From NCBI RefSeq assembly GCF_036013915.1, contig NZ_CP107901.1:1-64000 (forward strand): a DNA stretch of 64,000 bases, read 5' to 3'. This document shows, in pieces, positions 24,494 to 59,212 of this stretch. The stretch is from Streptomyces sp. NBC_00464. Its GTDB lineage: Bacteria; Actinomycetota; Actinomycetes; Streptomycetales; Streptomycetaceae. The position numbers were made by a program, and so were the translations under genes. Every line of letters begins with the position of its first letter. The first letter of the stretch is position 1. The notes beneath the pieces were generated by a model. That model searched no databases and was not told the origin of the DNA. It was given only the letters and a program-made list of their open reading frames with translations.

Positions 24494-24578
24494 ACGGAAC
24501 TCCCGGGAGGCGTTGGGGCAGATCCAGGTGCGGAAGACGCTGTCGGCTTGCAGTGGACTGTGCAGGCAACGATGGATA

Positions 24579-24597
24579 ACATAGAGGTCGTTCTTTT
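24579..24597. promoter_or_regulatory. GBL-receptor operator-like site (ARE-like) 1
   Basis: The sequence AACATAGAGGTCGTTCTTT lies 29 bases upstream of the receptor start, between the divergent synthase and receptor. It matches two other sites (30017, 45802) at AACATA, a central G, and TTC with fixed spacing. Autoregulatory elements bound by GBL receptors have this AACATA-type half-site layout. Confidence 0.6.
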
Positions 24598-24625
24598 TTT
24601 TGTCGAGCTGTACATGGGAGCCGAG

Positions 24626-38961: not shown

Positions 38962-40956
38962 ATGAACAGCCGTCTTGCGATCGAGGACGTCTCACCGGTG
39001 GTAGACCTCGCGAACGCCCGTGCCAAGGCAGTGGTCGACGAGCGGCTGCCGGTCTCGGCCACGGTGTGGCGCGAGGGGCACGGAGCCCTCGGCGCCGCCG
39101 TCCTGTGGTCGGGCCCGGACGGCGCCCTCAGCGAGGTCCCGATGTCCGTGCTCGAAGCGGACAGCGACCGCTGGACGGCGGACGTGGTGGCCGACCGGAC
39201 GGGCGAGTGGACCTTCCGCATCATGGCGTGGGCCGACCCCTGGGCATCCTGGCTCGGGGCCGTCGAGGCCCGGGTCCGGGACGGCCAGGAGCTCGCCCCG
39301 GTGGACCGCGAGGACGGTGCCGCACTGCTGTACCGCGCCGCCGACGTGCTCACCGACACCCTCACCGGTACGGACGCCGCCGGCCCGCTGCCCGGCGCCC
39401 GCGTGCTGCGGGGCGCCGACACCCTCTACGCTGCCGCCGCCGCCCTGCGCGCCGCCCGCACCACGGACGCCGCACTGGCGGCACTGTCCGGGCCGGTCCG
39501 CGATGTGATGGCGGGCGCGCCGCTGCGCGAAGCGCTGACGCTGGGGCGCGGACACCGGGTGCGGGTCGAGCGGCACCGCGCACTGTTCGGCAGCTGGTAC
39601 GAGTTCTTCCCCCGCTCCACCGGGGGTCGGGACCTCGACGGCGTCCCCGTGCACGGCACCTTCCGTACCGCCGCACGGGAACTGCCGCGCATCGCGCGCA
39701 TGGGCTTCGACATCGTCTACCTGCCGCCGATCCACCCGATCGGTGAGGTGGCCCGCAAGGGGCCGAACAACGCCCTCACCGCACAGCCGCACGATGTCGG
39801 CTCGCCCTGGGCCGTCGGCTCCCGCAGCGGCGGGCACGACGCGGTCCATCCGCAGCTGGGCACCCTCGCCGACTTCGACGCCTTCGTGGCGGCGGCCGCC
39901 GACGCCGGCCTGGAGGTCGCGCTCGATCTCGCCCTGCAGTGCGCCCCGGACCACCCCTGGGTGGACGCGCACCCCGAATGGTTCACCCACCGGTCCGACG
40001 GAAGCATCGCCTGCGCCGAGAATCCCCCCAAGATGTACGAGGACATCTTCCCCCTCGACTTCGACAGCGACCCGGAGGGCCTGTTCGCCGAGGTCGTGCG
40101 GACCGTACTGTTCTGGGCCGGCCGGGGCGTGCGCGCGTTCCGGGTGGACAACCCGCACACCAAGCCGCCCGGCTTCTGGCACCGGCTGATCGAGACCCTC
40201 CAGCGGACCGACCCCGACCTGCTCTTTCTCGCGGAGGCGTTCACCCGCGCCACCGTGCAGCACGGGCTGTCCAAACGGGGCTTCAGCCAGACGTACACCT
40301 ACTTCACCTGGTGCGACACCCAGCGTGAGCTGACCGACTACCTCACCGAACTGACCGGGGACGCGGCCGCCTGGATGCGGCCGAACTTCTTCGTCAACAC
40401 CCCGGACATCCTCCCGGACAGCCTCCGGGACGCACCGCCCGCCGCGTTCGCGCTGCGTGCCGCACTGGCCGCCACCCTCTCACCCAGCTGGGGCATGTAC
40501 GCCGGCTTCGAGCTGTACGAGAACCAGGCGCTGGAGCCCGGCAGCGAGGAGTACCTGGACTCGGAGAAGTACGAACTGCGCCCCCGCGACTTCGCGGCGC
40601 ACCGGTCCCTGGAGCCATGGATCGGCACGCTCAACCGGCTCCGCCGCGCTCACCCGGCGCTTCAGCAACTGCGCCACCTGCACTTCCACCCGGTGGACAA
40701 CGACCAGATCCTCGCCTACTCCAAGAGCGATCCGGTCACGGGCGACACCGTGCTGTGCGTCGTCACCCTGAACCCCCTCCGCACCGAGCAGGCCACGGTC
40801 CGGCTCGACATGTCCGCCCTGGGACGGGACCCCACGGCGCGCATCAGGGCGACCGAGGAGATCACCGGCCAGACCGTCGAGCTGGGGCCCGCCCTCGACA
40901 TCAAGGTCGACCCGCAGCAGTCCGTCGCCCACGTCTTCACCTGGAGAGTCCGTTGA
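38962..40956 (+). CDS. glgE: GlgE: alpha-1,4-glucan:maltose-1-phosphate maltosyltransferase
   Basis: The protein has 664 residues and an ATG start with GAGGGAGGCAG upstream. Family marks in order are [58 protein letters not shown] and [12 protein letters not shown]. The GH13 nucleophile lies in [14 protein letters not shown], the acid in FLAEAFT, and the third acid in [11 protein letters not shown]. It extends linear alpha-1,4-glucan from maltose-1-phosphate. Start of a coupled operon: its stop overlaps the treS start (TTGA), and maltokinase follows. Chromosomal Streptomyces copies are usually followed by the branching enzyme glgB, which is absent here. Confidence 0.92.
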
Positions 40957-42701
40957 CCCCGTCACCTCTGCCGCCGCACGGCACCACGAAGCACACCGCA
41001 GCGCCCGCCCTCCGCAAGGCGAGCGTGCTGCCCGTCGAGCCGCAGTGGTACAAGCAGGCGGTGTTCTACGAAGTGCTGGTCGGCACCTTCCAGGACAGCA
41101 ACGGCGACGGTGTCGGCGACCTCTCCGGGCTGCGGCAGCGTCTGGACTACCTGCAGTGGCTGGGCGTGGACTGCCTCTGGCTGCCCCCGTTCTACTGCTC
41201 GCCGCTGCGCGACGGCGGGTACGACATCGCCGACTACCGTCTGCTGAGACCGGAGTTCGGCACCATCGACGACTTCGTCGGACTGCTCGACGCCGCCCAC
41301 CGGCGCGGCATTCGCGTCATCACCGACATGGTCATGAACCACACCAGCGACCAGCACCGGTGGTTCCAGGAGTCGCGGCGCGACCCGGACGGCCCCTACG
41401 GCGACTTCTACGTGTGGGCCGACGACGACACCCGCTATGCCGACGCCCGGATCATCTTCACGGACACCGAGACCTCCAACTGGGCCTTCGACCCGGTCCG
41501 CAAGCAGTACTACTGGCACCGGTTCTTCTCCCACCAGCCGGACCTCAACTACGAGAACCCCGCCGTGCGCGAAGCCATGCTCGACGCGCTGCGCTTCTGG
41601 CTCGACCTGGGCGTGGACGGATTCCGGCTGGACGCCGTGCCGTACCTGTACGCGAAGGAGGGCACCAACGGCGAGAACCTGCCCGAGACCCACGCGTTCC
41701 TCAAGACCGTGCGCAAGGTCGTGGACGACGAGTACCCCGGCCGGGTGCTGCTCGCCGAGGCCAACCAGCGCCCCGACGAGATCACCGACTACTTCGGTGA
41801 CTACTCCGCCGGCGGGGACGAATGCCAGATGGCGTTCCACTTCCCCCTCATGCCCCGCATCTTCATGGCGGTGAGCAACGAGTCGGCCCGGCCCCTGTCC
41901 GAGATCCTCGCGAAGACCCCGGCGATCCCGGACACCTGCCAGTGGGGCATCTTCCTGCGCAACCACGACGAGCTGACGCTCGAAATGGTCACGGACGAAG
42001 AGCGCGACTCCATGTACAAGCACTACGCCAAGGACCCGAGGATGCGGGCCAACGTCGGCATCCGGCGCCGGCTCGCCACGCTCCTGGACGGCGACCGCAA
42101 CCAGATCGAACTGTGCACCGCACTGCTGCTGTCCCTGCCCGGATCCCCCGTCCTGTACTACGGGGACGAGATCGGCATGGGCGACAACATCTGGCTGGGC
42201 GACCGGGACGCCGTACGCACCCCCATGCAGTGGACTCCGGACCGCAACGCCGGATTCTCCACCGCCGATCCCGGGCGGCTCCACCTGCCCGTACTGATGG
42301 ACCCGGTGTACGGACACCAGGCGGTCAACGTCGAGAGCCAGCAGCGGGCCGCGGCATCCCTGCTGCACTGGACCCACTCCATGCTGGCGGCCCGGCGCCG
42401 CCACCCGGCCTTCGGGCTCGGCGACTTCCAGGAGGTCGCCACCACCAACGAGGCGGCCTTCGCCTATGTGCGCAGCCACACCGCCGAGGACGGCAGCACG
42501 GACGTCGTGCTGTGCGTCAACAACCTCTCCCGCCACCCGCAGCCGGTGGGCCTCGACCTCAGCGCCTGGCAGGGAGCCGTGCCCGTCGAGCTGATCGGAG
42601 GGGTCGCCTTCCCCCGGGTCGACGGAACTCCCTACCCGCTCACGCTCAAGGGCCGGGGCGTCTACTGGCTTTCGCTCACGTCGGACGGAAGCACCGAGTG
42701 A
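40953..42701 (+). CDS. treS: Trehalose synthase (maltose alpha-D-glucosyltransferase)
   Basis: The protein has 582 residues. The start is TTG overlapping the glgE stop, with GGAGAG upstream; the frame is also open further 5' inside glgE but that is a shadow. The GH13 features are [52 protein letters not shown], nucleophile [16 protein letters not shown], acid [11 protein letters not shown] and [14 protein letters not shown]. It interconverts trehalose and maltose, feeding maltose to the kinase that follows. Its stop overlaps the maltokinase start (GTGA). No fused maltokinase domain is present, so kinase activity comes from the separate gene. Confidence 0.92.
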
Positions 42702-44744: not shown

Positions 44745-45695
44745 ATGAATTCCACTCCTGCCCGGATAACCAAAGCGGTCATTCCAGTGGCTGGTCTCGG
44801 TACGCGCTTCCTCCCGGCGACCAAGGCCACCCCCAAGGAAATGCTCCCGGTGGTGGACAAGCCGGCGATTCAGTACGTCGTCGAGGAAGCGGTCTCCGCC
44901 GGGATGAGCGACGTGCTCATGGTGACGGGGCGCAACAAGCGCCCGCTGGAAGACCACTTCGACCGGAACTACGAGCTCGAGGAGACGCTGCGCCGCAAGG
45001 GCGACAACGACAAACTCGAGCGCGCGTGCGCCCCCACCGACCTGGGTGACATCCACTACGTCCGCCAGGGGGACCCCCTCGGCCTGGGGCACGCGGTGCT
45101 CTGCGCCGCCCCGCACGTCGGGCACGAGCCCTTCGCCGTCCTGCTCGGCGACGACCTCATCGACCCCCGCGACCCGCTGCTGAGCCGGATGACCGAGATC
45201 CGCGCACAGTACGGCGGGAGCGTCGTGGCCCTGATGGAGGTCGACCCCGGCCAGATCCATCTGTACGGCTGCGCCGCGGTGGAGCGGACCGCGGACGGCG
45301 ACACCGTACGCATCACCGATCTGATCGAGAAGCCGGCTCCGGGGGAGGCCCCGAGCAACTACGCGGTCATCGGCCGCTATGTCCTGGACCCGGAGATCTT
45401 CGACGTGCTGCGCGGGACCGAGCCCGGACGCGGTGGTGAGATCCAGCTGACGGACGCGCTGCGCGAACTGAGTACGGGGACCATGGGCGGACCGGTGCAC
45501 GGTGTGGTGTTCTCCGGACGCCGTTACGACACCGGTGACCGGGCCGACTATCTGCGCGCCACCGTGCGGCTGGCCTGTGAACGCAAGGACCTCGGGCCCG
45601 AGTTCCGGTCGTGGCTGCACGCGTTCGTGGCCGCCGACACCGGTGGCAGGCCCGACATTGCTGCCGGCCCCGGTCTGCTCCGGCCGGCCGCCTGA
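44745..45695 (+). CDS. galU: UTP-glucose-1-phosphate uridylyltransferase
   Basis: The protein has 316 residues and an ATG start (MNSTPARITKAVIPVAGLGT). The signature GLGTRFLPATKATPKEMLPV and VDKPAIQYVVEEAVSAG are diagnostic of bacterial GalU, followed by VLLGDDLID and DLIEKPAPGEAPSNYAVIGR. It makes UDP-glucose for nucleotide sugars or trehalose synthesis. It lies 56 bases after the TetR gene and is probably the last gene of the glgE operon. Streptomyces has a chromosomal galU, so a second copy here points to a dedicated supply for a local pathway. Confidence 0.9.
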   Translation: MNSTPARITKAVIPVAGLGTRFLPATKATPKEMLPVVDKPAIQYVVEEAVSAGMSDVLMVTGRNKRPLEDHFDRNYELEETLRRKGDNDKLERACAPTDLGDIHYVRQGDPLGLGHAVLCAAPHVGHEPFAVLLGDDLIDPRDPLLSRMTEIRAQYGGSVVALMEVDPGQIHLYGCAAVERTADGDTVRITDLIEKPAPGEAPSNYAVIGRYVLDPEIFDVLRGTEPGRGGEIQLTDALRELSTGTMGGPVHGVVFSGRRYDTGDRADYLRATVRLACERKDLGPEFRSWLHAFVAADTGGRPDIAAGPGLLRPAA

Positions 45696-45909: not shown

Positions 45910-47040
45910 ATGGCCACCACCACTCGTCCGGACACCCCGCCGCAGTCCTGCCCGGAGGTCCGGGCGCGGGCAGCGGTCTCGCCGCAAGCGCCTTCGTACC
46001 AGGTCCCGTTGGGTGTGCTGCTGGCTGCGGACTCGCCCCGGACGACGGGAGAGAACCTCGCGCACGCCCGCACCCTCGCGGCGAGTGAGACCGCGCTCCC
46101 GCCGATCCTCGTGCACCGCCCCACCATGCGGATCATCGACGGCACGCACCGGGTACGTGCGGCCATCCTGCGCCAGCAGGCCGTGATCGAGGCGCAGTTC
46201 TTCGACGGAACGCCCGAGGAGGCCTTCGTCCTTGCGGTCGAGTCCAACACCACCCATGGTCTGGCACTCACCCTCGCGGACCGGACGGCAGCCGCCGCCC
46301 GGATTCTGATCACCCACCCTCAGTGGTCGGACCGGGCCGTCGCCGCCCGGACCGGGCTCGCGGCCAAGACGGTCGGCGCACTTCGCCGGCCCCTGCCGCA
46401 GCAGGCCGCGCCCGCCTCACCCCCGCCCGTGACCGCGCCGGCCCCGCCACCGGCCCCGCCCGCGGTCGTGGTCGTGGATCAGGCCCCGGCTCCCGTCGCG
46501 GCCCCGGAACCGGCTCCGACCGCATCGGCCCCGCCCGCACCGGCCGCATCCGGAACCGCCCGCATAGGCCGGGACGGGCGGATCCGTCCGTTGAGTACCG
46601 CGGAGGGCCGGCGCGAGGCCGCCCGGCTGATCGCCGCAGACCCCGGCGCCTCGCTGCGTCAGATAGCGCGGCGGGCCGGAGTCTCGGCGGGCACGGTGCG
46701 CGACGTGCGTCGGCGGGCCGGGCTGGGCGAGGACCCGGTGCCGCCGAGGATGCGCGAGCGCGAACCGGCAGTGTCCGCACCGGACCCGCCCGCTGCCCCC
46801 GGCCCGCGGGTGGACCTCGACTCGCTCGTCAGGAACCTGTGCCGGGACCCCGCGCTGCGGCAGAGCGACAACGGACGTCTGCTGCTGCGGATGCTCGACC
46901 TGCACGTGGCCGGCACCCGTGACCTTCCGCGGATCCTTGCCGCGGTTCCCGCACACCGCGCCGGCCTGGTCGCGGCCGCCGCGACCGAGTGCGCGAGGGC
47001 CTGGCAGGAGATGGCGGCCCGGCTGCGCCCGCCGTCGTAG
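45910..47040 (+). CDS. StrR-like ParB-domain pathway regulator
   Basis: The protein has 376 residues. A ParB/Srx-type N-terminal domain is visible at residues 30-125: TTGENLAHARTLAASETALP then ILVHRPTMRIIDGTHRVRAA. An Ala/Pro linker follows. A helix-turn-helix lies in REAARLIAADPGASLRQIAR then RAGVSAGTVRDVRRRAG. This arrangement belongs to the StrR family of pathway-specific activators, which switch on antibiotic gene clusters and are often controlled by GBL signalling. The GBL-type operator-like site upstream fits this model closely. No TTA codon was seen. The MFS exporter 83 bases downstream is a likely direct target or operon partner. Confidence 0.75.
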   Translation: MATTTRPDTPPQSCPEVRARAAVSPQAPSYQVPLGVLLAADSPRTTGENLAHARTLAASETALPPILVHRPTMRIIDGTHRVRAAILRQQAVIEAQFFDGTPEEAFVLAVESNTTHGLALTLADRTAAAARILITHPQWSDRAVAARTGLAAKTVGALRRPLPQQAAPASPPPVTAPAPPPAPPAVVVVDQAPAPVAAPEPAPTASAPPAPAASGTARIGRDGRIRPLSTAEGRREAARLIAADPGASLRQIARRAGVSAGTVRDVRRRAGLGEDPVPPRMREREPAVSAPDPPAAPGPRVDLDSLVRNLCRDPALRQSDNGRLLLRMLDLHVAGTRDLPRILAAVPAHRAGLVAAAATECARAWQEMAARLRPPS

Positions 47041-47123: not shown

Positions 47124-48569
47124 ATGTCGGTCGTCGACGAAGTACAGACTTCCTCTGCGCAAGGAGACCCAGCGCCCACACGGATGACCGGGCGCATGCG
47201 CCTGGTTCTCGTCGTGCTGCTGGTGGCGCAGTTCATGCTGGCAGTGGACTTCTCCATCCTGAACGTGGCTCTGCCCGTCATCGGTGAGGGGCTCGGCTTC
47301 TCCCTGTCGAATCTGCAGTGGATCGCGACGGCGTTCGCCCTCAGTGCAGCCGGATTCACGCTGCTCTTCGGGCGGGTCGCGGACCTGTTCGGCCGTCGCC
47401 GGCTGTTCATGCTCGGCCTCGGCCTGCTGGGCCTCTCCTCCCTGGTCGGTGGCCTTTCCACCTCCCCGGAGATGCTGCTGATCGCCCGTGTCGCCCAGGG
47501 CCTCGCCACCGCGATGGTGACGCCCGCGGGTCTGTCACTGCTGACCACGTCCTTCCCCGAAGGGCCGCTCCGCGACCGGGCGCTCGGCCTGAACGGCGCC
47601 CTGATGTCGGCCGGTTTCACCACCGGCGCGATCCTGGGCGGTGTGCTCACCGACCTGCTGTCGTGGCGCTGGGCGTTCTTCATCAACGTCCCCGTAGCCC
47701 TGGCGGTGCTGCTGATCGCGCCCAGCGTGATCAAGGAGTCGCGTCCCGCGGTGCGCCCGAAGCTCGATGTGCCCGGCGCCGTGTCCGTCACCGTCGGTCT
47801 GCTGGCCCTCGTCTTCGGCCTCACCCAGGCCGGTGAGCACGGCTGGGGCTCGCCGACCGCGCTCATCTCGATGGCCGTCGGCGTGGTGCTGCTGATCGTC
47901 TTCTACGCGGTGGAGAGGCGTTCCCCGTCGCCGCTGGTCCCGGTCAGCGTCCTCAAGCGCCGTACGGTCGCCTGGGGCAACATCGCGGGACTGCTCGCGT
48001 TCATCACCGAGACCTCCCTGGTCTTCCTGATGACGCTCTACCTCCAGGAAGTCCTCGACTTCACCCCGCTGACGGCCGGTCTGTCCTTCGGCGTGCTGGG
48101 TGTGGGCACGGTCATCGGTGGTTCGCTGGCCGCCAAGGTCATCGAGAGGATCGGCACCAAGGCCACCCTGATCACCGGTGGTCTGCTCCAGGCAGCCGCC
48201 ACGATCGCCCTGTTCTCGCTGGGCGACGACCGGGCCTGGGTGTGGATGCTGCTGGTCGGGACGTTCCTCGGCGGCATCGGCAACATGCTGGTCATCGTCG
48301 GCTTCATGGTCACCGCCACCTCCGGTCTGCCGGACCACGAGCAGGGCATGGCGACCGGCCTGGCCACCATGACCCAGCAGGTCGGCATCACGATGGGCAC
48401 GCCCATCATGTCCGCCGTCGCCACCGGCCACATGGGTGGCCGGACGGGGTCGGACGCCGTACTCAGCGGTGTCGGGATCGCCGTCCTCGTCAACGGGGCG
48501 CTCGTGCTGCTCGGGGTCGTACTCGCCGCCGTCTTCCTGCGCGGCAAGAAGGCAACGGCCCGCGTCTGA
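47124..48569 (+). CDS. DHA2-type MFS drug exporter (14 TM)
   Basis: The protein has 481 residues and an ATG start with GAGAGGA upstream; the open frame further 5' is not coding. Fourteen hydrophobic helices are seen, starting LVLVVLLVAQFMLAVDFSIL with the DHA2 motif D..I.NVALP. Motif A is GRVADLFGRRRLFMLG and motif C is LMSAGFTTGAILGGVLTDLL. These proteins export drugs and secondary metabolites by proton antiport. Placement after the StrR-like gene suggests product export and self-resistance. A strong hairpin terminator follows. Confidence 0.88.
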   Translation: MSVVDEVQTSSAQGDPAPTRMTGRMRLVLVVLLVAQFMLAVDFSILNVALPVIGEGLGFSLSNLQWIATAFALSAAGFTLLFGRVADLFGRRRLFMLGLGLLGLSSLVGGLSTSPEMLLIARVAQGLATAMVTPAGLSLLTTSFPEGPLRDRALGLNGALMSAGFTTGAILGGVLTDLLSWRWAFFINVPVALAVLLIAPSVIKESRPAVRPKLDVPGAVSVTVGLLALVFGLTQAGEHGWGSPTALISMAVGVVLLIVFYAVERRSPSPLVPVSVLKRRTVAWGNIAGLLAFITETSLVFLMTLYLQEVLDFTPLTAGLSFGVLGVGTVIGGSLAAKVIERIGTKATLITGGLLQAAATIALFSLGDDRAWVWMLLVGTFLGGIGNMLVIVGFMVTATSGLPDHEQGMATGLATMTQQVGITMGTPIMSAVATGHMGGRTGSDAVLSGVGIAVLVNGALVLLGVVLAAVFLRGKKATARV

Positions 48570-48688: not shown

Positions 48689-49471
48689 ATGGATCTCCAG
48701 CTCGCCGGAAGGGTCTACCTCATCACCGGTGTCAGCGCCGGCATCGGCGAAGCCACCGCCAGGCTCCTGGCCGAGGAGGGCGCCCACGTCGTCGGGACCG
48801 CTCGCCGCACCGACGGCCTCGACCTCGGCCCCGGAGTGACCGCGGTCCGGGCCGACGCCCATGACCCCGACACGGGGCGGCGCGTGGTCGCCGAGGCGCT
48901 CGAACGGCACGGACGCCTGGACGGCCTCGTCAACAACGTCGGCGGGCTCAGCTCCCGCAGCGGCTTCCTGGACGTGACGGACACCCAGTGGCAGGAGGGG
49001 TTCGACCTCAACTTCCACTCCCATGTACGGATGACCAGGGCGGCCCTGCCCGCGCTACTGGCCTCGGGAGCGGGCAGCCTGGTCCATGTGGCCAGCGAGG
49101 CAGCCCGGTTCCCGGACGCCCCGCTCGTCGACTACGCCGCCGCGAAGACGGCGTTGTTGTCGCTCTCCAAGTCCCTGACCGCCGAGTTCGGCCCGCAGGG
49201 CGTCCGTTCCAACATCGTGTCGCCCGGCCCGACCCGTACCGCCCTGTTCGACGCTCCCGGCGGTTTCGCCGACCAGCTCGCCGAACGGTTCTCGCTCCCC
49301 GCCGACCAGGCCGTCGACCACTTCGTGCGGCAGGAGCGCAAGCTGCCCAGCGGCAGGATCGGCGCCCCGGACGACGTCGCCCGCGTCATCGCGTACCTGC
49401 TCTCGCCCCTCGCCTCCCAGGTGACCGGCTCGGAATGGGCCGTGGACGGCGGGGCACTGCGCCAGATCTGA
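48689..49471 (+). CDS. Short-chain dehydrogenase/reductase
   Basis: The protein has 260 residues and an ATG start with AGGAAAGAG upstream. The cofactor motif is LITGVSAGIGEATARLLAEE, NNVG occurs in LVNNVGGLSS, the catalytic Ser is in LVHVASEAARF, and Tyr-x-x-x-Lys is in DYAAAKTALLSLS; it ends WAVDGGALRQI. The PGPTRTALFD segment is typical of NADP-dependent oxidoreductases acting on small ketones or alcohols. It stands at the head of a plus-strand block with the sigma factor gene 39 bases later, and may be a tailoring enzyme. Confidence 0.85.
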   Translation: MDLQLAGRVYLITGVSAGIGEATARLLAEEGAHVVGTARRTDGLDLGPGVTAVRADAHDPDTGRRVVAEALERHGRLDGLVNNVGGLSSRSGFLDVTDTQWQEGFDLNFHSHVRMTRAALPALLASGAGSLVHVASEAARFPDAPLVDYAAAKTALLSLSKSLTAEFGPQGVRSNIVSPGPTRTALFDAPGGFADQLAERFSLPADQAVDHFVRQERKLPSGRIGAPDDVARVIAYLLSPLASQVTGSEWAVDGGALRQI

Positions 49472-49510: not shown

Positions 49511-50215
49511 ATGACAAAGACTCTCAGCCCGCCCGCCTCCGGCCGGGCCCCCGCAGCGACCGGCCACGCGCACACGGACACCGTGCGTACGGACACCGGG
49601 ATGGGGACCGAGACCGAGGCCGAGCGCAACGCGCGGTTCGAACGCGACATGCTGGGCCACCGCGACCAGATGTACGCGACGGCGCTGCGCCTGAGCCGCC
49701 ACCCGTGCGACGCCGAGGACCTGGTCCAGGAGACCTTCACCAAGGCGTTCCGCTCCTTCCACCAGTTCCGCGACGGCACCAATCCAGGGGCCTGGCTCTA
49801 CCGGATACTGACCAACACCTTCATGACCTCGTACCGCAAGAAGCAGTCGGAACCGGGGTGGGGCAGCGCCGACGCCGACGGCGACCGCTTGCTCGTCCGC
49901 GCCGCAAGTCACACGTCGGCCGGCCTGCCGTCCGCCGAGTCGGAGGTCCTGGACGCCATTCCGGACCCCGCCGTGCTGGCCGCGCTGCAGGCCATACCGG
50001 ACTACTTCCGCACGGTGGTGCTGCTCGCCGACGTCGAGTGCCTGACGTACCAGGAGATAGCCGAGCGGCTGAACATTCCGCACGGCACCGTCACCTCGCG
50101 CCTGCACCGGGGCCGCGGCCGGCTGCGCTCCCTGCTCACCCCCTATGCCCGGGAACGCGGTCTGCCGCCGGCGCGGCGCTCCGGCGCCGGCTCACCCCCG
50201 CGGAAGGAGAAGTAG
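49511..50215 (+). CDS. ECF sigma factor (SigR-like)
   Basis: The protein has 234 residues. A 55-residue disordered N-terminus precedes region 2 ([40 protein letters not shown]) and region 4 ([40 protein letters not shown]). The [20 protein letters not shown] segment is close to the SigR/SigH group, whose members answer to zinc anti-sigma factors under thiol stress. No RsrA-type gene lies next to it; the adjacent gene is an MFS exporter starting immediately after the stop. Control may be through a distant anti-sigma factor or transcription alone. Confidence 0.85.
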
Positions 50216-51415
50216 GTGCCGCTCGCCCTCTTGGCCCTGGCACTCGGCGCGTTCGGGATCGGGACCACCGAATTCGTCATCGTCGGCCTGCTGCCGGAAC
50301 TGGCAGCCGATTTCTCGGTGTCCGTCCCGAGCGCCGGAATGCTCGTCACCGGATACGCCCTCGGGGTGGTGGCCGGAGCTCCCCTGATGACCGCCCTGGG
50401 CTCGCGGCTGCCCCGCAAGACCATGCTCGTCCTGCTGATGGGTGTGTTCATCGCGGGCAACCTGCTCTGCGCGCTCGCGCCCACCTACGCACTGCTCATG
50501 ACGGGCCGTCTGGTGGCCGCCCTCACCCACGGCGCGTTCTTCGGCATCGGATCCGTCGTCGCGGCGAACCTGGTGGCACCGGCGAGGAAGGCCAGCGCCA
50601 TCGCCCTGATGTTCATCGGGCTGACCGTCGCCAACGTCATCGGCGTCCCCCTGGGCACCCTGCTGGGCCAGAGCTTCGGCTGGCGCTCCACGTTCTGGGC
50701 CGTCACCGCGTTCGGCGTCGTCGGGATCCTCGGCATCATCGCCCTGGTGCCTCCCCAGCCGCAGGACAGCACCGGAGGGATCCGCAGCGAGCTGGCGGTC
50801 TTCCGGCGGCCGCAGGTATGGCTGGCCCTCGGCATGACGACCCTCGGGTTCGGGGGTGTCTTCGCCTCGTTCACCTATCTCGCGCCGATGATGACGGACG
50901 TCGCGGGCTTCTCCTCGGGCGCGGTCGCCTGGCTGCTCGTCCTGTTCGGTGTGGGCCTGTGCGCCGGCAACCTGATCGGGGGAAGGGTCGCCGACCGGGC
51001 CCTGATGCCCAGTCTGTACGTGATCCTCACCCTGCTCGCGCTGGTGCTCGCGGCCTTCGTCTTCACCGCCCGCGCGCCCGTCCCGGCCGCGATCACCATC
51101 GCGGTGTTCGGGGCGGTGGGGTTCGCCACCGTGCCGCCGCTGCAGATGCGGGTCATGCAGAAGGCCGAGGGCGCCCCCGCCCTCGCCTCCGCCGCCAACA
51201 TCGCGGCGTTCAACCTGGGCAACGCCCTCGGCGCCTGGCTCGGCGGCCTCGCCGTCACGCACGGCCTGGGATACACCGCGCCGAACTGGATCGGTGCGGT
51301 GCTGGCCGCCGCGGGCCTGGTCCTTGCCGTGCTGTCGGGGCGGCTCGACCGCCGTACCGCACGCCGTACGCGCGAGTCCGAGGACGCCTCCTCCACCACG
51401 TACGCGACCGTCTGA
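50216..51415 (+). CDS. DHA1-type MFS transporter
   Basis: The protein has 399 residues; a GTG start follows the sigma gene stop directly, with GGAAGGAGAAG as ribosome-binding site inside that gene. It starts LALLALALGAFGIGTTEFVI, the AraJ/Cmx-like hallmark of small DHA1 exporters. About twelve helices and motif A-like SRLPRKTMLVLLM are visible. It may export chloramphenicol-like drugs, sugars or arabinose-type compounds. Coupling to a sigma factor suggests stress-induced export, possibly the second export route for the local product. Confidence 0.85.
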   Translation: MPLALLALALGAFGIGTTEFVIVGLLPELAADFSVSVPSAGMLVTGYALGVVAGAPLMTALGSRLPRKTMLVLLMGVFIAGNLLCALAPTYALLMTGRLVAALTHGAFFGIGSVVAANLVAPARKASAIALMFIGLTVANVIGVPLGTLLGQSFGWRSTFWAVTAFGVVGILGIIALVPPQPQDSTGGIRSELAVFRRPQVWLALGMTTLGFGGVFASFTYLAPMMTDVAGFSSGAVAWLLVLFGVGLCAGNLIGGRVADRALMPSLYVILTLLALVLAAFVFTARAPVPAAITIAVFGAVGFATVPPLQMRVMQKAEGAPALASAANIAAFNLGNALGAWLGGLAVTHGLGYTAPNWIGAVLAAAGLVLAVLSGRLDRRTARRTRESEDASSTTYATV

Positions 51416-51539: not shown

Positions 51540-53207
51540 ATGAGTGGTATCGATCGCCGGCGCATGCTGGGCAACAGCGCGGCCGTCGTCGGCGGAATCG
51601 CCGCGGCGTCCGTCCTGGTGGAACCGGCCTCGGCCGCCCCCGCCGCGAAGGGGCCCGCCGCGAAGGGGGCGAAGGTGGCCCCCACCGACCCGAGGTACCC
51701 GTTGCTGACCACCGGCAACAACCAGCGCTTCGTCGCACGTCCCGACTACGTGGCCCTCATCAGGTCGTCGGCCGACGCCGAGCAGGCCCTGCGCACCGCC
51801 TACCGGGACGGCAAACGGGTCTCGGTGCGCAGCGGCGGCCACTGCTTCGCCGACTTCGTCTGCAACCCCGAGATAGAAGTCATCCTGGACTTCTCCGAGA
51901 TGACGGACGTGGGGTACGACCCCGGGTTCCGCGCCTTCTACGTGGAGCCGGGCGCCCGGCTGATGAACGTGTACGAGGCCCTCTACAAGGGCTGGGGCGT
52001 CACCGTCCCCGGAGGCATCTGCTACAGCGTCGGAGCGGGCGGCCACATAGCCGGCGGCGGATACGGTCTGCTCTCCCGCGCCCACGGCCTGGTCACCGAC
52101 CATCTGTACGCCGTGGAGGTCGTCGTGGTCGACGACCGGGGCCGGGTCCGTACCGTCGTCGCCACCCGGGAGGAGGACGACCCCAACCGTGACCTGTGGT
52201 GGGCCCACACCGGCGGCGGCGGGGGCAACTTCGGCCTCGTCACCCGGTACTGGTTCCGCTCGCCGGGGGCCACCGGGTCCGAACCGTCCGACCAGCTGGT
52301 CTCACCGCCCTCGAAGGTGCTCGTCAGCGCCCTGGACTTCTCCTGGGACCAGCTGACCGAGACGAGGTTCGCCCGGCTGCTGAAGAACTTCGGCGCCTGG
52401 CACGAGCAGCACAGCTCGCCCGACTCCGAGTACCGCCACCTGAGCAGCCTCTTCAACGTCAGCTCCAAGGCGCACGGCAGCATCGGCATGTTCACCCAGG
52501 TCGACGCGGACCGTCCGAACGCGCGCAAGCTGCTCGACGACTACAACCGGGCGATCACCGCGGGTACCGGCATCAAACCCAAGGCCCTCACCCGGGCCAC
52601 CGGCGAACTCCCGCCGATGCCGCAGCTGGCCGAGCCGAAGGAGATGCCCTGGCTGCAGGCGACCCGGCTGGTCGGCACGAACAACCCGACGATCACCAAC
52701 CCGACGTCGCGGGGCGCGCACAAGTCCGCGTACATGCGCAAGAACTTCACCGACCAGCAGATCGCCGCGCTCTACAAGCACATGTCCCGCCCCGACTTCG
52801 ACAACCCGGACACCATGCTCGTGCTGTTCTCGTTCGGCGGTCAGGTCAACGCACTGGCCCCGGACGCCACGGCGAACGCGCAGCGCAGCTCCGTCTTCAA
52901 GATGTGCTTCCAGACGTTCTGGGAGGACGAGAGCGAGGACGACTTCTATCTCGGCTGGGTCCGCGACCTGTACGAGGAGTTCTTCGCCAGGACCGGCGGC
53001 GTGCCGGTCATCGGTGACTCCACCGACGGTTGCTACATCAACTACCCCGACCGGGACCTTTCCGACCCGCGGCACAACCGTTCGGGCGTGCCCTGGCAGA
53101 CCCTTTACTACAAGGAAAACTATCCGAGGCTGCAGCAGGTGAAGCGGCGCTGGGACCCGTCCGACTTCTTCCGCCACTCGTTGTCCATCAAGCCCGCAAA
53201 GGACTGA
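51540..53207 (+). CDS. Secreted bicovalent FAD-linked oxidase (BBE-like)
   Basis: This 555-residue protein has a twin-arginine signal (RRRMLGNSAAVVGG, likely cleaved near residue 32), so it is exported folded. The FAD-binding PCMH domain has VSVRSGGHCFADF, with H101 at the covalent-His position, and GGICYSVGAGGHIAGGGYG, with C161 at the second covalent position. A 60-residue His-Cys spacing is normal for bicovalent flavoproteins such as glucooligosaccharide oxidase and berberine bridge enzyme. The C-terminal BBE segment is CYINYPDRDL and ends VKRRWDPSDFFRHSLS. The substrate could be a sugar (oxidised to a lactone or keto sugar) or an alkaloid-like compound; the carbohydrate context favours a sugar. 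Confidence 0.85.
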   Translation: MSGIDRRRMLGNSAAVVGGIAAASVLVEPASAAPAAKGPAAKGAKVAPTDPRYPLLTTGNNQRFVARPDYVALIRSSADAEQALRTAYRDGKRVSVRSGGHCFADFVCNPEIEVILDFSEMTDVGYDPGFRAFYVEPGARLMNVYEALYKGWGVTVPGGICYSVGAGGHIAGGGYGLLSRAHGLVTDHLYAVEVVVVDDRGRVRTVVATREEDDPNRDLWWAHTGGGGGNFGLVTRYWFRSPGATGSEPSDQLVSPPSKVLVSALDFSWDQLTETRFARLLKNFGAWHEQHSSPDSEYRHLSSLFNVSSKAHGSIGMFTQVDADRPNARKLLDDYNRAITAGTGIKPKALTRATGELPPMPQLAEPKEMPWLQATRLVGTNNPTITNPTSRGAHKSAYMRKNFTDQQIAALYKHMSRPDFDNPDTMLVLFSFGGQVNALAPDATANAQRSSVFKMCFQTFWEDESEDDFYLGWVRDLYEEFFARTGGVPVIGDSTDGCYINYPDRDLSDPRHNRSGVPWQTLYYKENYPRLQQVKRRWDPSDFFRHSLSIKPAKD

Positions 53208-53551: not shown

Positions 53552-54748
53552 ATGCGGTCTGTCGCAGTCGTTCTCGGTACCCGTCCCGAAGCCATCAAGC
53601 TGGCGCCGGTCATCCAGGCGCTCCAGGAGGATCCCCGCTTCGATCCAGTCGTCATCTCCACCGGTCAGCACCGGCAGATGCTCGACGACACGCTGGACGC
53701 CTTCGGGCTCAAGCCCGACCTCGACCTCGAGATCATGGCGCCCAAGCAGACGCTCTCCCAGGTCACCTACCGCTCGCTGCGCGGCCTCGGCGAGTACTTC
53801 CGGGAGTCCACGGTCGACGCGGTCCTGGTCCACGGCGACACCGCGACCACCCTCGCCGCGGCCCTCTCCGGCTTCCACCACCAGATTCCCGTCGTCCACA
53901 TCGAGGCCGGCCTGCGCAGCGGTGAGCTCGGCTCGCCGTTCCCCGAGGAGGGCAACCGCCGGATCGTCGGCCAGCTCGCCGGCCTCCACCTCGCACCGAC
54001 CCCGGGCAACCGGACCAACCTGCTCCGGGAAGGCATCGCCGAGGAAACCATCGTCGTCACCGGAAACACCGTCATCGACGCGCTCCAGTGGGCGAGCGGC
54101 AGATCGGAGAGCTACGGCGACCCCGCACTGGACGACCTCGACACCGACCCCCGGCGCGTGGTCCTCGCCTCGGCCCACCGCCGCGAGGCATGGCCGCACC
54201 TGACCCAGATCGGCAAGGCGCTGGTCGCCATAGCCGAGGAGCCCGACGTACGGGTGGTGGTGCCGCTGCACCGCAACCCGGCAGTCCGTGAGGCGCTCAT
54301 CCCGGTCATCGGCAACCACCCGAACATCACCGTCGTCGACCCGCTGCCCTACCTGAGCTTCTGCAAGCTCATGGGACGCGCCGACATCATCGTCTCGGAC
54401 AGCAGCGGCTCACAGGAGGAAGGGCCCGCACTCGGCAAGCCGACGCTGGTCCTCGGCAACGTCACCGAGCGCTCCGAAGCCGTCGTCGCCGGCACCGCGT
54501 GCCTGGTGGGCACCGCCACCGACGGCATCGTCAGCGCCGCCACCCGACTGCTGCGCGACAAGGACGAGTACCTGCGGATGGCCACCGCGGCCAACCCCTA
54601 CGGCGACGGCTGCGCCACGGCACGCACCGTGGGCGCCATCGCGCACTACTTCGGCGACGGCCCCGCGGTGGAGCCGTTCGTCCCCGGCACCGCCGTCGAC
54701 GACATCGCCGCGGAGCTCGCCCGTTCCATGGACCTGGCCGAGGTGTGA
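53552..54748 (+). CDS. wecB: UDP-N-acetylglucosamine 2-epimerase (non-hydrolysing)
   Basis: The protein has 398 residues; ATG was chosen at AAAGGAAGCCGTC spacing although the frame is open upstream. It shows the GT-B-like epimerase signatures VLGTRPEAIKLAPVIQALQ, VLVHGDTATTLAAAL, HIEAGLRSGELGSPFPEEGN, TGNTVIDALQ, SDSSGSQEEGPALGKPTLVL and RSEAV. It converts UDP-GlcNAc to UDP-ManNAc in the cytoplasm. No UDP-ManNAc dehydrogenase or glycosyltransferase is near, so the product may serve a dedicated pathway or the enzyme may act on a related nucleotide sugar. It is the first gene of a block with the aldos-2-ulose dehydratase-like pair. Confidence 0.9.
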   Translation: MRSVAVVLGTRPEAIKLAPVIQALQEDPRFDPVVISTGQHRQMLDDTLDAFGLKPDLDLEIMAPKQTLSQVTYRSLRGLGEYFRESTVDAVLVHGDTATTLAAALSGFHHQIPVVHIEAGLRSGELGSPFPEEGNRRIVGQLAGLHLAPTPGNRTNLLREGIAEETIVVTGNTVIDALQWASGRSESYGDPALDDLDTDPRRVVLASAHRREAWPHLTQIGKALVAIAEEPDVRVVVPLHRNPAVREALIPVIGNHPNITVVDPLPYLSFCKLMGRADIIVSDSSGSQEEGPALGKPTLVLGNVTERSEAVVAGTACLVGTATDGIVSAATRLLRDKDEYLRMATAANPYGDGCATARTVGAIAHYFGDGPAVEPFVPGTAVDDIAAELARSMDLAEV

Positions 54749-54861: not shown

Positions 54862-55632
54862 GTGCAGGACAGCGACCTCAACACCGTGAGCACACTGAAC
54901 TTCACGGGGAAGCACATCGAAGCGCTCCTCGTCCGCAACGCCAAGGACTTCCCCGTCCAGGGCCGGACCCTCGTCGTCAACATCGGAGCAACACCCGCCC
55001 CGCTCGCCCGGACACCGCGCACGAGCATTCCGCCGCTGTCCTCCACCGTCCTCGTCGACACCCGTGTTCAAGAGGCACAGGCACTCGTCCTGCTGCGGAT
55101 CAACGACGAGTCCGCAGCGGTGGAGGACATCGTGGGGGAGCCGGGCTGGCACCTGCTGGGCGACCTCCTCGGTGACGCCCCGGCCACGGACCCGGACCCC
55201 GGCACCGGCGGGCGGCCCTTCCCCAGGGACACCCCGCTGTGGAAGGGCCCCCAGGACGACGCCGGGGTGATCGCCCTCGACCCCGGCCGGCTGCTGGGGG
55301 AGAGCATCGCCCCGCCGCGCGAGACACCGTTCCAGGTGAAGGTCAACCTCTGGTACGCCCCCGCCGGCACCGACTGCGCCATCCACAACCAGCACGACTT
55401 CATCGAGGTCCACACCCAGGTACTGGGCACCGGCCGGATGCAGAAGTTCACGGATCAGGACCACAGCACCCTCTACGAGGACGTGCTGATGAGTCCGGGC
55501 TACACGACCCCCGACCCGTTCTGCGACACCGCCCCCGACGGCACGTTCCGCTACCCCTGGCACCAGTACCGCGCCGACACCGACTGCGTCTGGCTCGCGG
55601 TCGAGTACCACGCTCCCGCCCCGACGCACTGA
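54862..55632 (+). CDS. Cupin protein resembling the cupin half of aldos-2-ulose dehydratase
   Basis: The protein has 256 residues; GTG 54862 has GAAGGGGA at good spacing. An ATG at 54748 overlapping the wecB stop (TGATG) would add a Thr/Pro-rich leader encoded by a short GACCC/AATCC tandem repeat, and is less likely. A C-terminal cupin-like segment reads CAIHNQHDFIEVHTQVLGTG then RYPWHQYRADTDCVWLAVEY. The His/Glu pattern could bind a metal. From memory it resembles the cupin part of fungal aldos-2-ulose dehydratase, where a FHNH...CEIH...GTGRGGM segment and a YPWHAW segment occur in the same order. The next gene matches the propeller part. Confidence 0.55.
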   Translation: MQDSDLNTVSTLNFTGKHIEALLVRNAKDFPVQGRTLVVNIGATPAPLARTPRTSIPPLSSTVLVDTRVQEAQALVLLRINDESAAVEDIVGEPGWHLLGDLLGDAPATDPDPGTGGRPFPRDTPLWKGPQDDAGVIALDPGRLLGESIAPPRETPFQVKVNLWYAPAGTDCAIHNQHDFIEVHTQVLGTGRMQKFTDQDHSTLYEDVLMSPGYTTPDPFCDTAPDGTFRYPWHQYRADTDCVWLAVEYHAPAPTH

Positions 55633-55725
55633 CCCCGGCGCACCCCTCTTCTTCGCTTCTCGTACATCGCACACACCCACACCCCGGCCCTCCCGGGGCC
55701 GACCGAAACCTCTGAGGAGAACACC

Positions 55726-56979
55726 ATGACCGCCAACGACGCCTCCAGCCTCCGCGCCCCGAAGTTCACCCCGGAACTGGTGGCCGACCAACTGCGCGAC
55801 GGCTACTGGCTGGAGGCCCCGGACCTCGACAACGACAACAAGCCGGACCTGTTCGGCTACGGGCTGCGCCTGGGAGAGATCTACTGGTACCAGAACGACG
55901 ACAAGTGGACCCGCCGCCTGGTCGCCGACAAGATCAAGATGCCGGTCGGCGCCGACTTCGCCGACGTCAGCGGCAACGGCCACTCCGACATCATCGTCTG
56001 CTACGACCTCTACGGGCCCATCGGCACCATCCACGACGCCAACACGTCCGGCGGCAAGATCGACTGGCTGGAGAACCCCGGCAGCCCGGACAAGGACGAG
56101 TCCCGCTGGAAGCGGCACTACGTGGGGCGCGCGACCGGAATGCACCGGCTGCGGGCCGGCTACTTCACCCAGACCGAGCGGCTGGAGATCATAGGCCTGC
56201 CGATTGTCGCCAAGGAGGACGTCCACGCGGTCCTGCCGATCGTCCTGTTCACCCAGCCCGACGACGTACACACAGCCGAGGAATGGCCGATGACGGTCAT
56301 CGACGACAGCCACTTCCGCATGATTCACGGCGCGGAGAAGAAGAAGGGCCTGGTCCCCGGCTCCGAACTGGAGTCACTGCTGCTCGCCTCGGACGAGGGA
56401 GTCAGCTGGCTGCACTTCGACGAGGTCAAGAAGGAATGGGTCCGCAAGCTCATCGGCACCGGCGAGCTCACGCAGTTCGAGCAGACCGGCTTCCGCGGCA
56501 GCGGTGACCTCAACGCCGGGCGCATGGGCGACGACCCGATGGCGTACGTCGCCGCGGTCGAGCCGTTCCACGGCAACACGGTGGCCGTCTACACCAAGGC
56601 CACCGACGGGCCGGCCGGCGAGGTCGAGTGGAACCGCGTTCTGCTCGACGTGTACGGAGACCCCAACGAGAACGGCGAGGGCCCCGGGCACCAGATCGTC
56701 TGCGCCGACTTCGACGGCGACGGCGAGGACGAGTTCCTCGTGGCGCTGCGCGGGCCGTGGCCGTGGCAGGGCGTCATGTACTACAAGGCCATCGACCTCA
56801 AGAACGGCGTCTGGGCGAAGTGGCGGGTCTCCGACGACTCCGTCGCCCGGATCGCGACCGCCGACTTCAACGGTGACGGCCGGCTCGACTTCGCGACGAT
56901 CGCGTACTCGGTCCAGAACTACTACGTCGCCAAGGAAGCCAAGCTCATGGTCTACCGCAACGAGATCGACCCGCAGTAG
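55726..56979 (+). CDS. Beta-propeller protein resembling the propeller half of aldos-2-ulose dehydratase
   Basis: The protein has 417 residues with an ATG start after GAGGAG. Repeated FG-GAP/VCBS-like blades carry Asp-rich calcium loops: DLDNDNKPDLFGYGLRLGEI, DVSGNGHSDIIVCYD, DFDGDGEDEFLVALRG and DFNGDGRLDFATIAYS. Order and wording (DGYWLEAP, IDWLENPG, HRLRAGYFTQTERLEIIG, EPFHGNTVAVYTKATDG, HQIVCADFDGDGEDEF) parallel the seven-bladed propeller of fungal aldos-2-ulose dehydratase as I remember it. That enzyme converts 1,5-anhydrofructose or glucosone to pyranone antimicrobials. No signal peptide is seen. Together with the cupin gene 93 bases upstream it could form a two-subunit version. Confidence 0.6.
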   Translation: MTANDASSLRAPKFTPELVADQLRDGYWLEAPDLDNDNKPDLFGYGLRLGEIYWYQNDDKWTRRLVADKIKMPVGADFADVSGNGHSDIIVCYDLYGPIGTIHDANTSGGKIDWLENPGSPDKDESRWKRHYVGRATGMHRLRAGYFTQTERLEIIGLPIVAKEDVHAVLPIVLFTQPDDVHTAEEWPMTVIDDSHFRMIHGAEKKKGLVPGSELESLLLASDEGVSWLHFDEVKKEWVRKLIGTGELTQFEQTGFRGSGDLNAGRMGDDPMAYVAAVEPFHGNTVAVYTKATDGPAGEVEWNRVLLDVYGDPNENGEGPGHQIVCADFDGDGEDEFLVALRGPWPWQGVMYYKAIDLKNGVWAKWRVSDDSVARIATADFNGDGRLDFATIAYSVQNYYVAKEAKLMVYRNEIDPQ

Positions 56980-57111: not shown

Positions 57112-58407
57112 ATGACTTCGTACACTCCCACCCCGGCCCGTGCAGCAGCTTCGTCCAAGGCGAAACCAGCCAAGCCGCCCAAACTGCCCTCCCTGACCGG
57201 CCTGCGGTTCTTCGCGGCCCTGATGGTGTTCTTCTTCCACTCCTCGCTGATGGACTCCCCGATCCCGCCGAACAACCCGATCAACCCGTTCGCCGACCAC
57301 GGCATCGCCGACGCCTACGAGACGCTGTTCAGCAAGGCCGGCTATCTGGGGGTCTCCTTCTTCTTCGTACTCAGCGGATTCGTGCTCGCCTGGGCCGCCA
57401 AGCCGGGGGAGCGGACGACAGCCTTCCTGCGACGCCGGCTGATGAAGATCTTCCCCAACCACCTCGTGGTGGCCACCGTCTCACTGGTGCTGTTCGCCGG
57501 AGCCGCCATCTCCAGCGTCGGTGACTGGCTCCCCAACCTGCTGCTGATACACACGTTCTTCCCGCAGCCGGGCATCAACCTCAGCATCAGCCCGCCGAGC
57601 TGGTCCCTCGGCAGCGAGCTCCTGTTCTACATGCTCTTCCCGCTGCTGATCGTCCCGATCCGCAAGATCGCCGAGAAGCGACTGTGGACCTGGTCCGGCC
57701 TGATGATCCTGGGCATGGTGGGCGTCCAGCTGATCACCCAGTTCCTCATCCCCGCCACCCCGAAGTCCGCCATCACGCCCATCTCCGACATGCAGTTCTG
57801 GTTCGGCTACCTCTTCCCGCCCGGCCGCGTCTTCGAGTTCGTCCTCGGCATCCTGCTGGCACGCATCGTCGCCTCGGGCCGCTGGCCGCGTGCCATCGGC
57901 ATGCGCGTCTCGCTCGTCCTGACCGTCATCGGTTACGGTGCCGCGCTCCTGCTGCCCTTCCAGTACGGCTTCGTCGTCGCCACCATCATTCCGGTCAGCG
58001 CGCTCGTGTGCTCCGTCGCCGCCGCCGATGTGGCCGGCCGCGAGACCAGGCTCAAGGGCCGGGTCATGCAGTTCCTCGGCGAGGTCTCCTTCGGCTTCTA
58101 CCTCGTCCAGGGCGTCACGATCTTCTACCTGCGCTCGCTGCTGGGCGAGAGCACCTACAGCGTCCCCGCCGCGATCCTCCTGATCCTCGGGTTCCTCGCC
58201 GCCTCGCTGCTCGGCGGCTGGCTCCTCTACCGGTACGTCGAGATGCCCGCCATGCGCCGCTGGAGCCGCAGCCGCAAGCAGGCCCCCGCGGCCCCCACCG
58301 CATCGACGCCCCTCGCCGCACCCGCCACCCCGCTCTCCGCATCCGCATCCGCATCCGACGACGACAACCAGCCCCAGGACCTCGTCCTGACCGCGCCCCG
58401 CTCCTGA
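57112..58407 (+). CDS. OafA-type membrane O-acyltransferase
   Basis: This 431-residue integral membrane protein has an ATG start. After a Pro/Lys-rich tail comes SLTGLRFFAALMVFFFHSSL, with the conserved Arg and catalytic-type His of the acyltransferase-3 family, then LGVSFFFVLSGFVLAWA and a FLRRRLMKIFPNHLV loop. About ten transmembrane helices follow. The C-terminal 40 residues are Ala/Pro/Ser-rich and cytoplasmic. Such enzymes O-acylate sugars, glycans or macrolides. Its place between the propeller gene and a hydrolase suggests acylation of the sugar-derived product. Confidence 0.85.
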   Translation: MTSYTPTPARAAASSKAKPAKPPKLPSLTGLRFFAALMVFFFHSSLMDSPIPPNNPINPFADHGIADAYETLFSKAGYLGVSFFFVLSGFVLAWAAKPGERTTAFLRRRLMKIFPNHLVVATVSLVLFAGAAISSVGDWLPNLLLIHTFFPQPGINLSISPPSWSLGSELLFYMLFPLLIVPIRKIAEKRLWTWSGLMILGMVGVQLITQFLIPATPKSAITPISDMQFWFGYLFPPGRVFEFVLGILLARIVASGRWPRAIGMRVSLVLTVIGYGAALLLPFQYGFVVATIIPVSALVCSVAAADVAGRETRLKGRVMQFLGEVSFGFYLVQGVTIFYLRSLLGESTYSVPAAILLILGFLAASLLGGWLLYRYVEMPAMRRWSRSRKQAPAAPTASTPLAAPATPLSASASASDDDNQPQDLVLTAPRS

Positions 58408-58432: not shown

Positions 58433-59212
58433 ATGCCGATCGTCCGCACAGAGGGAACCGAGGTGCACTACCGCACCGAAGGAACCGGCCCCGGCCTCCT
58501 TCTCGTCCACGGCTCCACGGCCGACTCCGAAGCCAACTTCGCCGCCCTGCGGCCCTACTTCACCGACCACCACACGGTCATCACCGCCGACTACTCGGGC
58601 AGCGGATCCACCGCGCTGCCCGAGGGCGGGGAGCTCGGCCTGGATCTGGTGAGCGCCCAGATGGCAGCCGCGGCCCGCGCCGCGACCGACGGCCCCGTCG
58701 ACGTCGTCGGCGTCTCCCTCGGCGCGGTGGTCGCCGCAGCCCTGGCCGCGGAGCACCCCGCTCTCGTACGCCGCCTGGTGCTGGTCGGCGGCTGGGCCCG
58801 CAACGACGACCCGCGCCAGCGGCTGATGTTCGGCCTCTGGCGCAGCCTCGCCGACCTCGACCGGGACGCCTACCAGCGGTTCATCACCCTGCTGGCACTC
58901 TCCCCCGAGACGCTGTCCGGCCTGGACGACGAGACGATCGCGACGCTCGCCGCAGCGGCCGAACCGTCCGAGGGAGCCCGCCGCCAGATCGACCTGGACC
59001 TCGTGGCCGACATCCGAGAACGCCTGGCCGAGATCCGGGCGCCAACACTGGTCATCGGCGCGACACAGGACCAGGTCGTCCCCGTCGCCCACGCCCGCGA
59101 ACTGCACGCCGGCATCGAGGGGAGCCGCTACGAGGAGATCGACAGCGGACACAACGTCCTGTACGAGAGAGGAAAGGAGCTCGCCGATCTGATCACCGAA
59201 TTCCTGGACTGA
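58433..59212 (+). CDS. Alpha/beta-hydrolase
   Basis: The protein has 259 residues; ATG follows CAGGAGGCACACC. The fold is plain: GLLLVHGSTADSEANF (oxyanion HG), nucleophile elbow VVGVSLGAVVAAALA (G-x-S-x-G), and DSGHNVLYER supplying the catalytic His. The acid is probably in GATQDQVV. It could be an esterase or a lactonase acting on the acylated or lactone product, or a thioesterase-like helper. It is the last gene of the block, ending before a very strong terminator. Confidence 0.85.
   Translation: MPIVRTEGTEVHYRTEGTGPGLLLVHGSTADSEANFAALRPYFTDHHTVITADYSGSGSTALPEGGELGLDLVSAQMAAAARAATDGPVDVVGVSLGAVVAAALAAEHPALVRRLVLVGGWARNDDPRQRLMFGLWRSLADLDRDAYQRFITLLALSPETLSGLDDETIATLAAAAEPSEGARRQIDLDLVADIRERLAEIRAPTLVIGATQDQVVPVAHARELHAGIEGSRYEEIDSGHNVLYERGKELADLITEFLD

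Follow-up and report, generated by a model that had tools for sequence, protein, structure and literature searches.

A two-gene bacterial counterpart of fungal aldos-2-ulose dehydratase, clustered with a WecB-type enzyme that may supply 1,5-anhydrofructose

Aldos-2-ulose dehydratase (AUDH) of Phanerochaete chrysosporium (PDB 4a7k, 4a7y and 4a7z) is a single chain of 900 residues, whereas the bacterial counterpart described here is encoded by two genes. Upstream of ascopyrone and microthecin, which fungi form from 1,5-anhydrofructose, stands alpha-1,4-glucan lyase, whose enol product becomes 1,5-anhydrofructose (PMC12441222). The catalytic base of the lyase is D553, helped by N459, a position that is Ile in glycosidases (PMC12441222). 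A second family that bears on the locus is that of the WecB-type epimerases, in which anti-elimination of UDP gives a glycal and is followed by re-addition (PMC10622841, PMC8869731). Release of the glycal has been reported for KasQ of kasugamycin (23.8% 2-acetamidoglucal and 64.4% UDP at 12 h) and for the E. coli WecB mutants K15A, D95Q, E117Q, E131Q and H213N (PMC8869731).

The window analysed is a stretch of 64,000 bp, positions 1 to 64,000 of contig NZ_CP107901.1 from Streptomyces sp. NBC_00464. Judged by its sequence matches, it appears to be one end of a linear plasmid of Streptomyces: between 40 and 60 kb it aligns at 98.7% with NZ_CP108675.1, a linear record of 228,798 bp from Streptomyces sp. 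NBC_01022, and of the part from 1 to 20 kb 95% aligns with the same record at 97.2%, reaching its last bases. The first-pass annotation had taken two adjacent genes for the two parts of fungal AUDH, a split version of that enzyme lying in a sugar region. This is confirmed, the propeller being recognised by sequence (4a7k and PF22301) and the cupin by the fold of its model, and the pair lies among sugar and export genes, with galU and two MFS exporters nearby (Table 1). Position, codon use (GC at third positions is 0.95 in the propeller gene), spacing and independent NCBI annotation mark both as real genes. GalU makes UDP-glucose, and the galU of the cluster is an extra copy, two more being present on the chromosome at 76% and 73% identity. 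Elsewhere in the window, a homologue of AfsA, the gamma-butyrolactone synthase, is encoded some 30 kb away from the pair, at 23495–24844 (PF03756, E=3.2e-37), and a GlgE-domain protein without a PF00128 match at E≤0.001 lies at 38962–42701, its reading frame overlapping the TreS frame as called.

Table 1. Features of the cluster, with window coordinates and the basis of each assignment.
Feature	Coordinates	Strand	Basis or proposed role
galU, UTP-glucose-1-phosphate uridylyltransferase	44745..45695	+	NCBIfam galU 328.7 bits, over cut-off
Pathway regulator, StrR-type	45910..47040	+	weak HTH matches; NCBI on NZ_CP108675.1: streptomycin biosynthesis regulator
EmrB-type MFS exporter	47124..48569	+	TIGR00711 231.7 bits; start from NCBI annotation
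SDR family oxidoreductase	48689..49471	+	PF13561 E=2.9e-50; NCBI annotation
Sigma-70 family factor (SigH-like)	49601..50215	+	TIGR02947 248.5 bits, just below cut-off; NCBI start
Cmx/AraJ-type MFS exporter	50216..51415	+	NF033135 371 bits, below cut-off 400
BBE-type flavin oxidase, twin-arginine motif	51540..53207	+	PF01565 and PF08031
WecB-type non-hydrolysing UDP-sugar 2-epimerase	53552..54748	+	proposed UDP-glucose lyase giving 1,5-anhydrofructose; TIGR00236 403.6 bits; PDB 1f6d E=4.7e-102; NCBI start
AUDH-type bicupin	54862..55632	+	proposed ascopyrone M isomerase (microthecin-forming); fold from the model
AUDH-type seven-bladed propeller	55726..56979	+	proposed 1,5-anhydrofructose dehydratase; 4a7k E=1.4e-76; PF22301 E=2.2e-56
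Membrane acyltransferase (Acyl_transf_3)	57118..58407	+	PF01757 E=7.3e-31; NCBI start
Alpha/beta hydrolase	58433..59212	+	PF00561 E=1.7e-21

The window propeller, above the PF22301 cut-off in a Pfam profile search, is 40% identical to its homologue, AUDH residues 19–429. The fungal enzyme also has 58 of the 76 invariant propeller residues, and in the alignment D328, D330, D332, D335 and E336, as well as H140, H201, H282 and H322, match fungal residues. Propeller lengths were 389–463 aa among the 120 matches listed of 471. The label is already present in Pfam, and some UniRef or JGI homologues are named ‘Aldos-2-ulose dehydratase, beta-propeller’. A 43% propeller homologue was seen at 781864–783078 of CP012860.1, a replicon of Persicobacter sp. 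JZB09.

The cupin protein is a double cupin, and the best solved match of its model is AUDH 453–734, others being far behind. Identity to AUDH is only 18%, and phmmer and two profiles, with the cupin as query, did not retrieve AUDH from the PDB, so the AUDH identity of the cupin rests on the model; confident recognition as AUDH-type would fail by sequence alone. Residues H175, H178, E182, H184 and H234 are invariant in the alignment of cupin homologues, and the homologue and NCBI names seen give no function for the protein. Its last residue aligns with position 734 or so of the 900-residue AUDH. The profile and structure comparison that the first-pass annotation had proposed thus places the two proteins side by side on the fungal chain, together spanning AUDH 19 to about 735, and the last ~165 of 900 residues have no counterpart in the bacterial pair. 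A two-gene bacterial AUDH is well supported. The two proteins presumably divide the work as the corresponding parts of the fungal enzyme do.

Gene order is reversed relative to AUDH in most bacteria, the cupin coming first in 37 of the 39 close pairs (400 bp or less). A single bifunctional polypeptide was not found, the window having two genes and the loci in which cupin and propeller share a frame having a stop between them. Several apparent fusions were rejected: P0295 (355 aa) lacks half of each part, seems to result from misassembly or from a deletion and was not counted. The fused-looking ORFs of family c13, and the cupin ORFs of excessive length in L012, L018 and L055, reflect starts called too early or, in the case of L055, a stop codon that the tblastn match ran across. 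A mixed alignment of propeller and cupin was of poor quality, with the window propeller reaching only 31% to the fused row, and was set aside. In L012 (around 10001) and L018 (around 9989) the cupin stop overlaps the propeller start, as in translational coupling. Among cupin homologues, P0274 and P0279, the latter cyanobacterial, have a DUF6209 (PF19714) part fused to the cupin, and P0294, 57% identical to the L051 cupin, bears the name of a sea anemone gene, LOC116290232 of Actinia tenebrosa, which points to either horizontal transfer or contamination.

Conservation of the neighbourhood was assessed in 67 loci that a scan of genome contigs retrieved by exact matches to short words from the window protein, a procedure that biases the sample towards relatives of that protein. 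Counts refer to 63 loci with a propeller of at least 380 aa (excluding L065 and L066, with shorter propellers, L067 and L068, with no propeller ORF, and L001, the window itself), and neighbours are tblastn matches at E≤1e-8 in flanks of up to 10 kb, often less. A cupin lay within 5 kb in 57/63 loci, on the propeller strand in 55 of those 57, and a WecB-type gene lay within 5 kb on the propeller strand in 54/63 (L035 included). The six cupin-less loci were L024, cut by a contig end, and five with distant propellers of 44–48% identity and no cupin or WecB match (L056, L057, L059, L060 and L062); these six and three cyanobacterial loci make up the nine without a WecB-type gene. Every cupin-bearing locus therefore had a partner enzyme (57/57: WecB-type in 54, GH31 in the 3 cyanobacteria). 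Further matches, of 63, were to the Cmx-type MFS exporter (49), BBE oxidase (44), acyltransferase (44), EmrB-type MFS exporter (35), galU (17), StrR-type regulator (12) and alpha/beta hydrolase (6), and the SDR family c8, a mixed one, occurred in 28; the window carries every one of these recurrent neighbours. The 17 galU matches (two, in Xenorhabdus, at 40–42% identity, three cut by the locus end and one in pieces) compare with about 0.4 expected, on our own estimate, from 3 copies per 9 Mb, related loci not being independent, and in 46/63 loci the examined flank had no galU match.

Among the hosts were Streptomyces, Kitasatospora, Saccharothrix, Cryobacterium, Curtobacterium, Brevibacterium, Xenorhabdus, Serratia, Pseudomonas, Paraburkholderia and cyanobacteria. 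Distribution within the order was patchy: the propeller was found in 7/147 genomes, the window's own included, and in 0/14 control genomes. In four of the seven a PF02350 gene lay no further than about 1.5 kb away, and the other three had none genome-wide. Open-access PMC literature, beyond which lie many subscription papers, listed no paper on bacterial AUDH clusters, and our search there found no earlier description of the cupin-propeller pairing or of the cluster. A second kind of AUDH-type propeller was represented by four of the distant loci (L056, L059, L060 and L062), adjoining a GatZ/KbaZ-like protein, a TCAD9-like protein and an MFS transporter, with a luciferase-like monooxygenase in 3/4; by their neighbours these propellers would belong to a different pathway.

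A clue to the substrate came from the cyanobacterial loci (L050–L052), in which the order is propeller, cupin and then a GH31 protein of 999–1040 aa. When only its catalytic stretch is compared, the L051 protein is closest, among solved structures, to alpha-1,4-glucan lyase 2x2h (E=5.3e-35), although the lyase is outscored by maltase-glucoamylase and other alpha-glucosidases when the whole protein is used. All three proteins read VWQDMTTPA at the D553 motif, where the glucosidases shown have W.DMNEPA, and C.TNIT at the N459 motif; placement on 2x2h is by the L051 alignment, the N459 segment scoring only 1.7 bits and being located by its offset from D553. Since a GH31 protein with glucan-lyase residues stands beside the same pair, 1,5-anhydrofructose is the likely substrate of propeller and cupin, as the first-pass annotation had offered as one of two candidates. 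In the remaining 54 of 57 cupin-bearing loci a WecB-type enzyme takes the place of the GH31 protein.

The other candidate substrate, glucosone, fared less well. An oxidase would make it and the pair would convert it to cortalcerone; the cluster does contain an oxidase, and Koths 1992 (cited in PMC11650716), by its title, reportedly used pyranose 2-oxidase together with AUDH to make cortalcerone out of glucose. However, pyranose 2-oxidase is GMC-type, whereas the one oxidase that recurs belongs to the BBE type, with TamL, AknOx and 2wdw as its nearest relatives. The cyanobacterial loci have no match to it, and none of the 28 families found in at least three loci (one representative of each) resembled a GMC-type pyranose oxidase. 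The glucosone route is accordingly very improbable.

We think that the WecB-type neighbour is the main point of the locus. The cluster proteins, aligned as 54 rows (the window and 53 loci; L035 and L065, whose WecB readings are broken or cut, were left out), were compared with 30 others, namely the 29 best-scoring PF02350 matches made into loci and E. coli WecB. They share with WecB/MnaA and KasQ the family and all tested catalytic residues, R10, K15, D95, E117, E131 and H213 being kept in 54/54, and KasQ likewise comes from a Streptomyces antibiotic cluster. They differ in standing as a separate clade, one side of a 100/100 branch (54 rows), where long branches meet according to a warning from the tree program, and in the diphosphate loop, which reads DSSG in 54/54 and DSGG in 30/30 comparison proteins; T288S and G291S are found in 54/54 against 0/30. 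P314 is often lost, being kept in 18/54 as opposed to 30/30. A further difference, on our proposal, would be a stop at elimination. S290 corresponds by motif to Ser 284 of the T. thermophilus enzyme, which binds the alpha-phosphate (PMC10622841), and G291S, next to this serine, may alter the substrate or favour release of the intermediate.

Loss of UDP from UDP-glucose is not a reaction the family has by default, since KasQ binds UDP-glucose (Kd 9.5 uM) yet yields no 2-hydroxyglucal or UDP-mannose (PMC8869731). A UDP-glucose lyase would therefore need a change of specificity, which the DSSG loop may or may not bring. Were the enzyme to act on UDP-GlcNAc instead, it would pass 2-acetamidoglucal, or the hydrolysis product 1,5-anhydrofructose, to the pair, and the product may contain nitrogen. 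Its catalytic residues are indeed those of UDP-GlcNAc 2-epimerases, NCBI and TIGR00236 name it as one, and 2-acetamidoglucal is what KasQ releases (PMC8869731); but the gene that recurs is galU rather than an amino-sugar gene, and cyanobacteria seem to supply the same pair through glucan lyase, that is, from glucose, so that we hold this to be distinctly unlikely.

It is also conceivable, if unlikely, that the WecB-type enzyme is an ordinary epimerase forming UDP-ManNAc or UDP-mannose for another branch, and that 1,5-anhydrofructose derives from the turnover of glycogen or trehalose. The window does encode TreS and a GlgE-like protein immediately upstream of the cluster, and as the genome has no PF02350 member besides the cluster WecB, a housekeeping role is possible for it. 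On the other hand, none of the 28 families in at least three loci resembled a glycosyltransferase (one representative each; c14 without a Pfam match), leaving a nucleotide-sugar product without an evident user; the loop change is diagnostic of the cluster proteins, and 29/29 other PF02350 loci examined in the order have DSGG and no propeller within about 4 kb.

Our hypothesis for the route to the AUDH substrate, which has good indirect support, is that this clade acts as a nucleotide-sugar lyase. GalU would provide UDP-glucose, and the WecB-type enzyme would carry the 2-epimerase reaction only as far as its midpoint, eliminating UDP in anti fashion and releasing the glycal. From UDP-glucose this glycal would be 2-hydroxyglucal, which is the enol form of 1,5-anhydrofructose and identical to the enol formed by glucan lyase. 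That the clade thus converts UDP-glucose to 1,5-anhydrofructose, replacing glucan lyase and feeding the split AUDH in an antibiotic pathway spread horizontally through Actinomycetota and Pseudomonadota, we regard as almost evenly balanced, tilting slightly towards doubt. Open-access PMC, many subscription papers lying outside it, listed no paper on conversion of UDP-glucose to 1,5-anhydrofructose. In the steps that would follow, the propeller would remove water from 1,5-anhydrofructose to give ascopyrone M, and the bicupin would isomerise this to microthecin or a relative.

Acyltransferase and SDR would then tailor the pyranone and the MFS pumps would carry it out of the cell, where the BBE oxidase may complete it. 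The nearest solved relatives of that oxidase include the BBE-type oxidases of sugar-bearing antibiotics TamL, AknOx and the putative hexose oxidase 2wdw (PDB E 4.2e-160 to 8.6e-154), which act on antibiotics; here the substrate would presumably be the free pyranone. A twin-arginine (RR) motif lies near the oxidase start in 37/45 rows, the window's included (TIGR01409 Tat model on the window oxidase: 14.3 bits, below the cut-off of 16.7), and because of this motif and of the action of its relatives on antibiotics the enzyme may act outside the cell. In three proteobacterial loci (L048, L049 and L058; Pfam on the L049 member) a glutathione-transferase-like gene stands between cupin and propeller, as one would expect were the product an electrophile such as an enone. 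Pentenomycin, a C6 isomer, was considered as product and dropped for want of evidence; by title, no paper on its biosynthesis was found in open-access PMC.

A sugar-derived secondary metabolite, as first proposed, is the best reading of the cluster, given the StrR-type regulator, two MFS exporters, BBE oxidase and acyltransferase. The pair might otherwise be a catabolic or clean-up system for 1,5-anhydrofructose, which is a side product of alpha-glucosidases (PMC12441222); yet the exporters, StrR-type regulator, acyltransferase and patchy spread (7/147 genomes) resemble a secondary-metabolite cluster, and we consider a clean-up role quite improbable. We lean, by a modest degree, towards a biosynthetic cluster in which a two-polypeptide AUDH is central to building a small electrophilic sugar-derived pyranone and the WecB-type enzyme supplies its 1,5-anhydrofructose.

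The genes of these clusters are now annotated by NCBI as ‘VCBS repeat’, ‘hypothetical’ and ‘wecB’. E. coli forms 1,5-anhydrofructose by a pathway that PMC12441222 describes as undefined. If the proposal is true, UDP-glucose lyases of the WecB type would open another route to this sugar, unrelated to the first, the wecB annotation, with its implication of cell-surface sugar synthesis, would be corrected, and the clusters would be a genetic basis for AUDH-type pyranones in bacteria.
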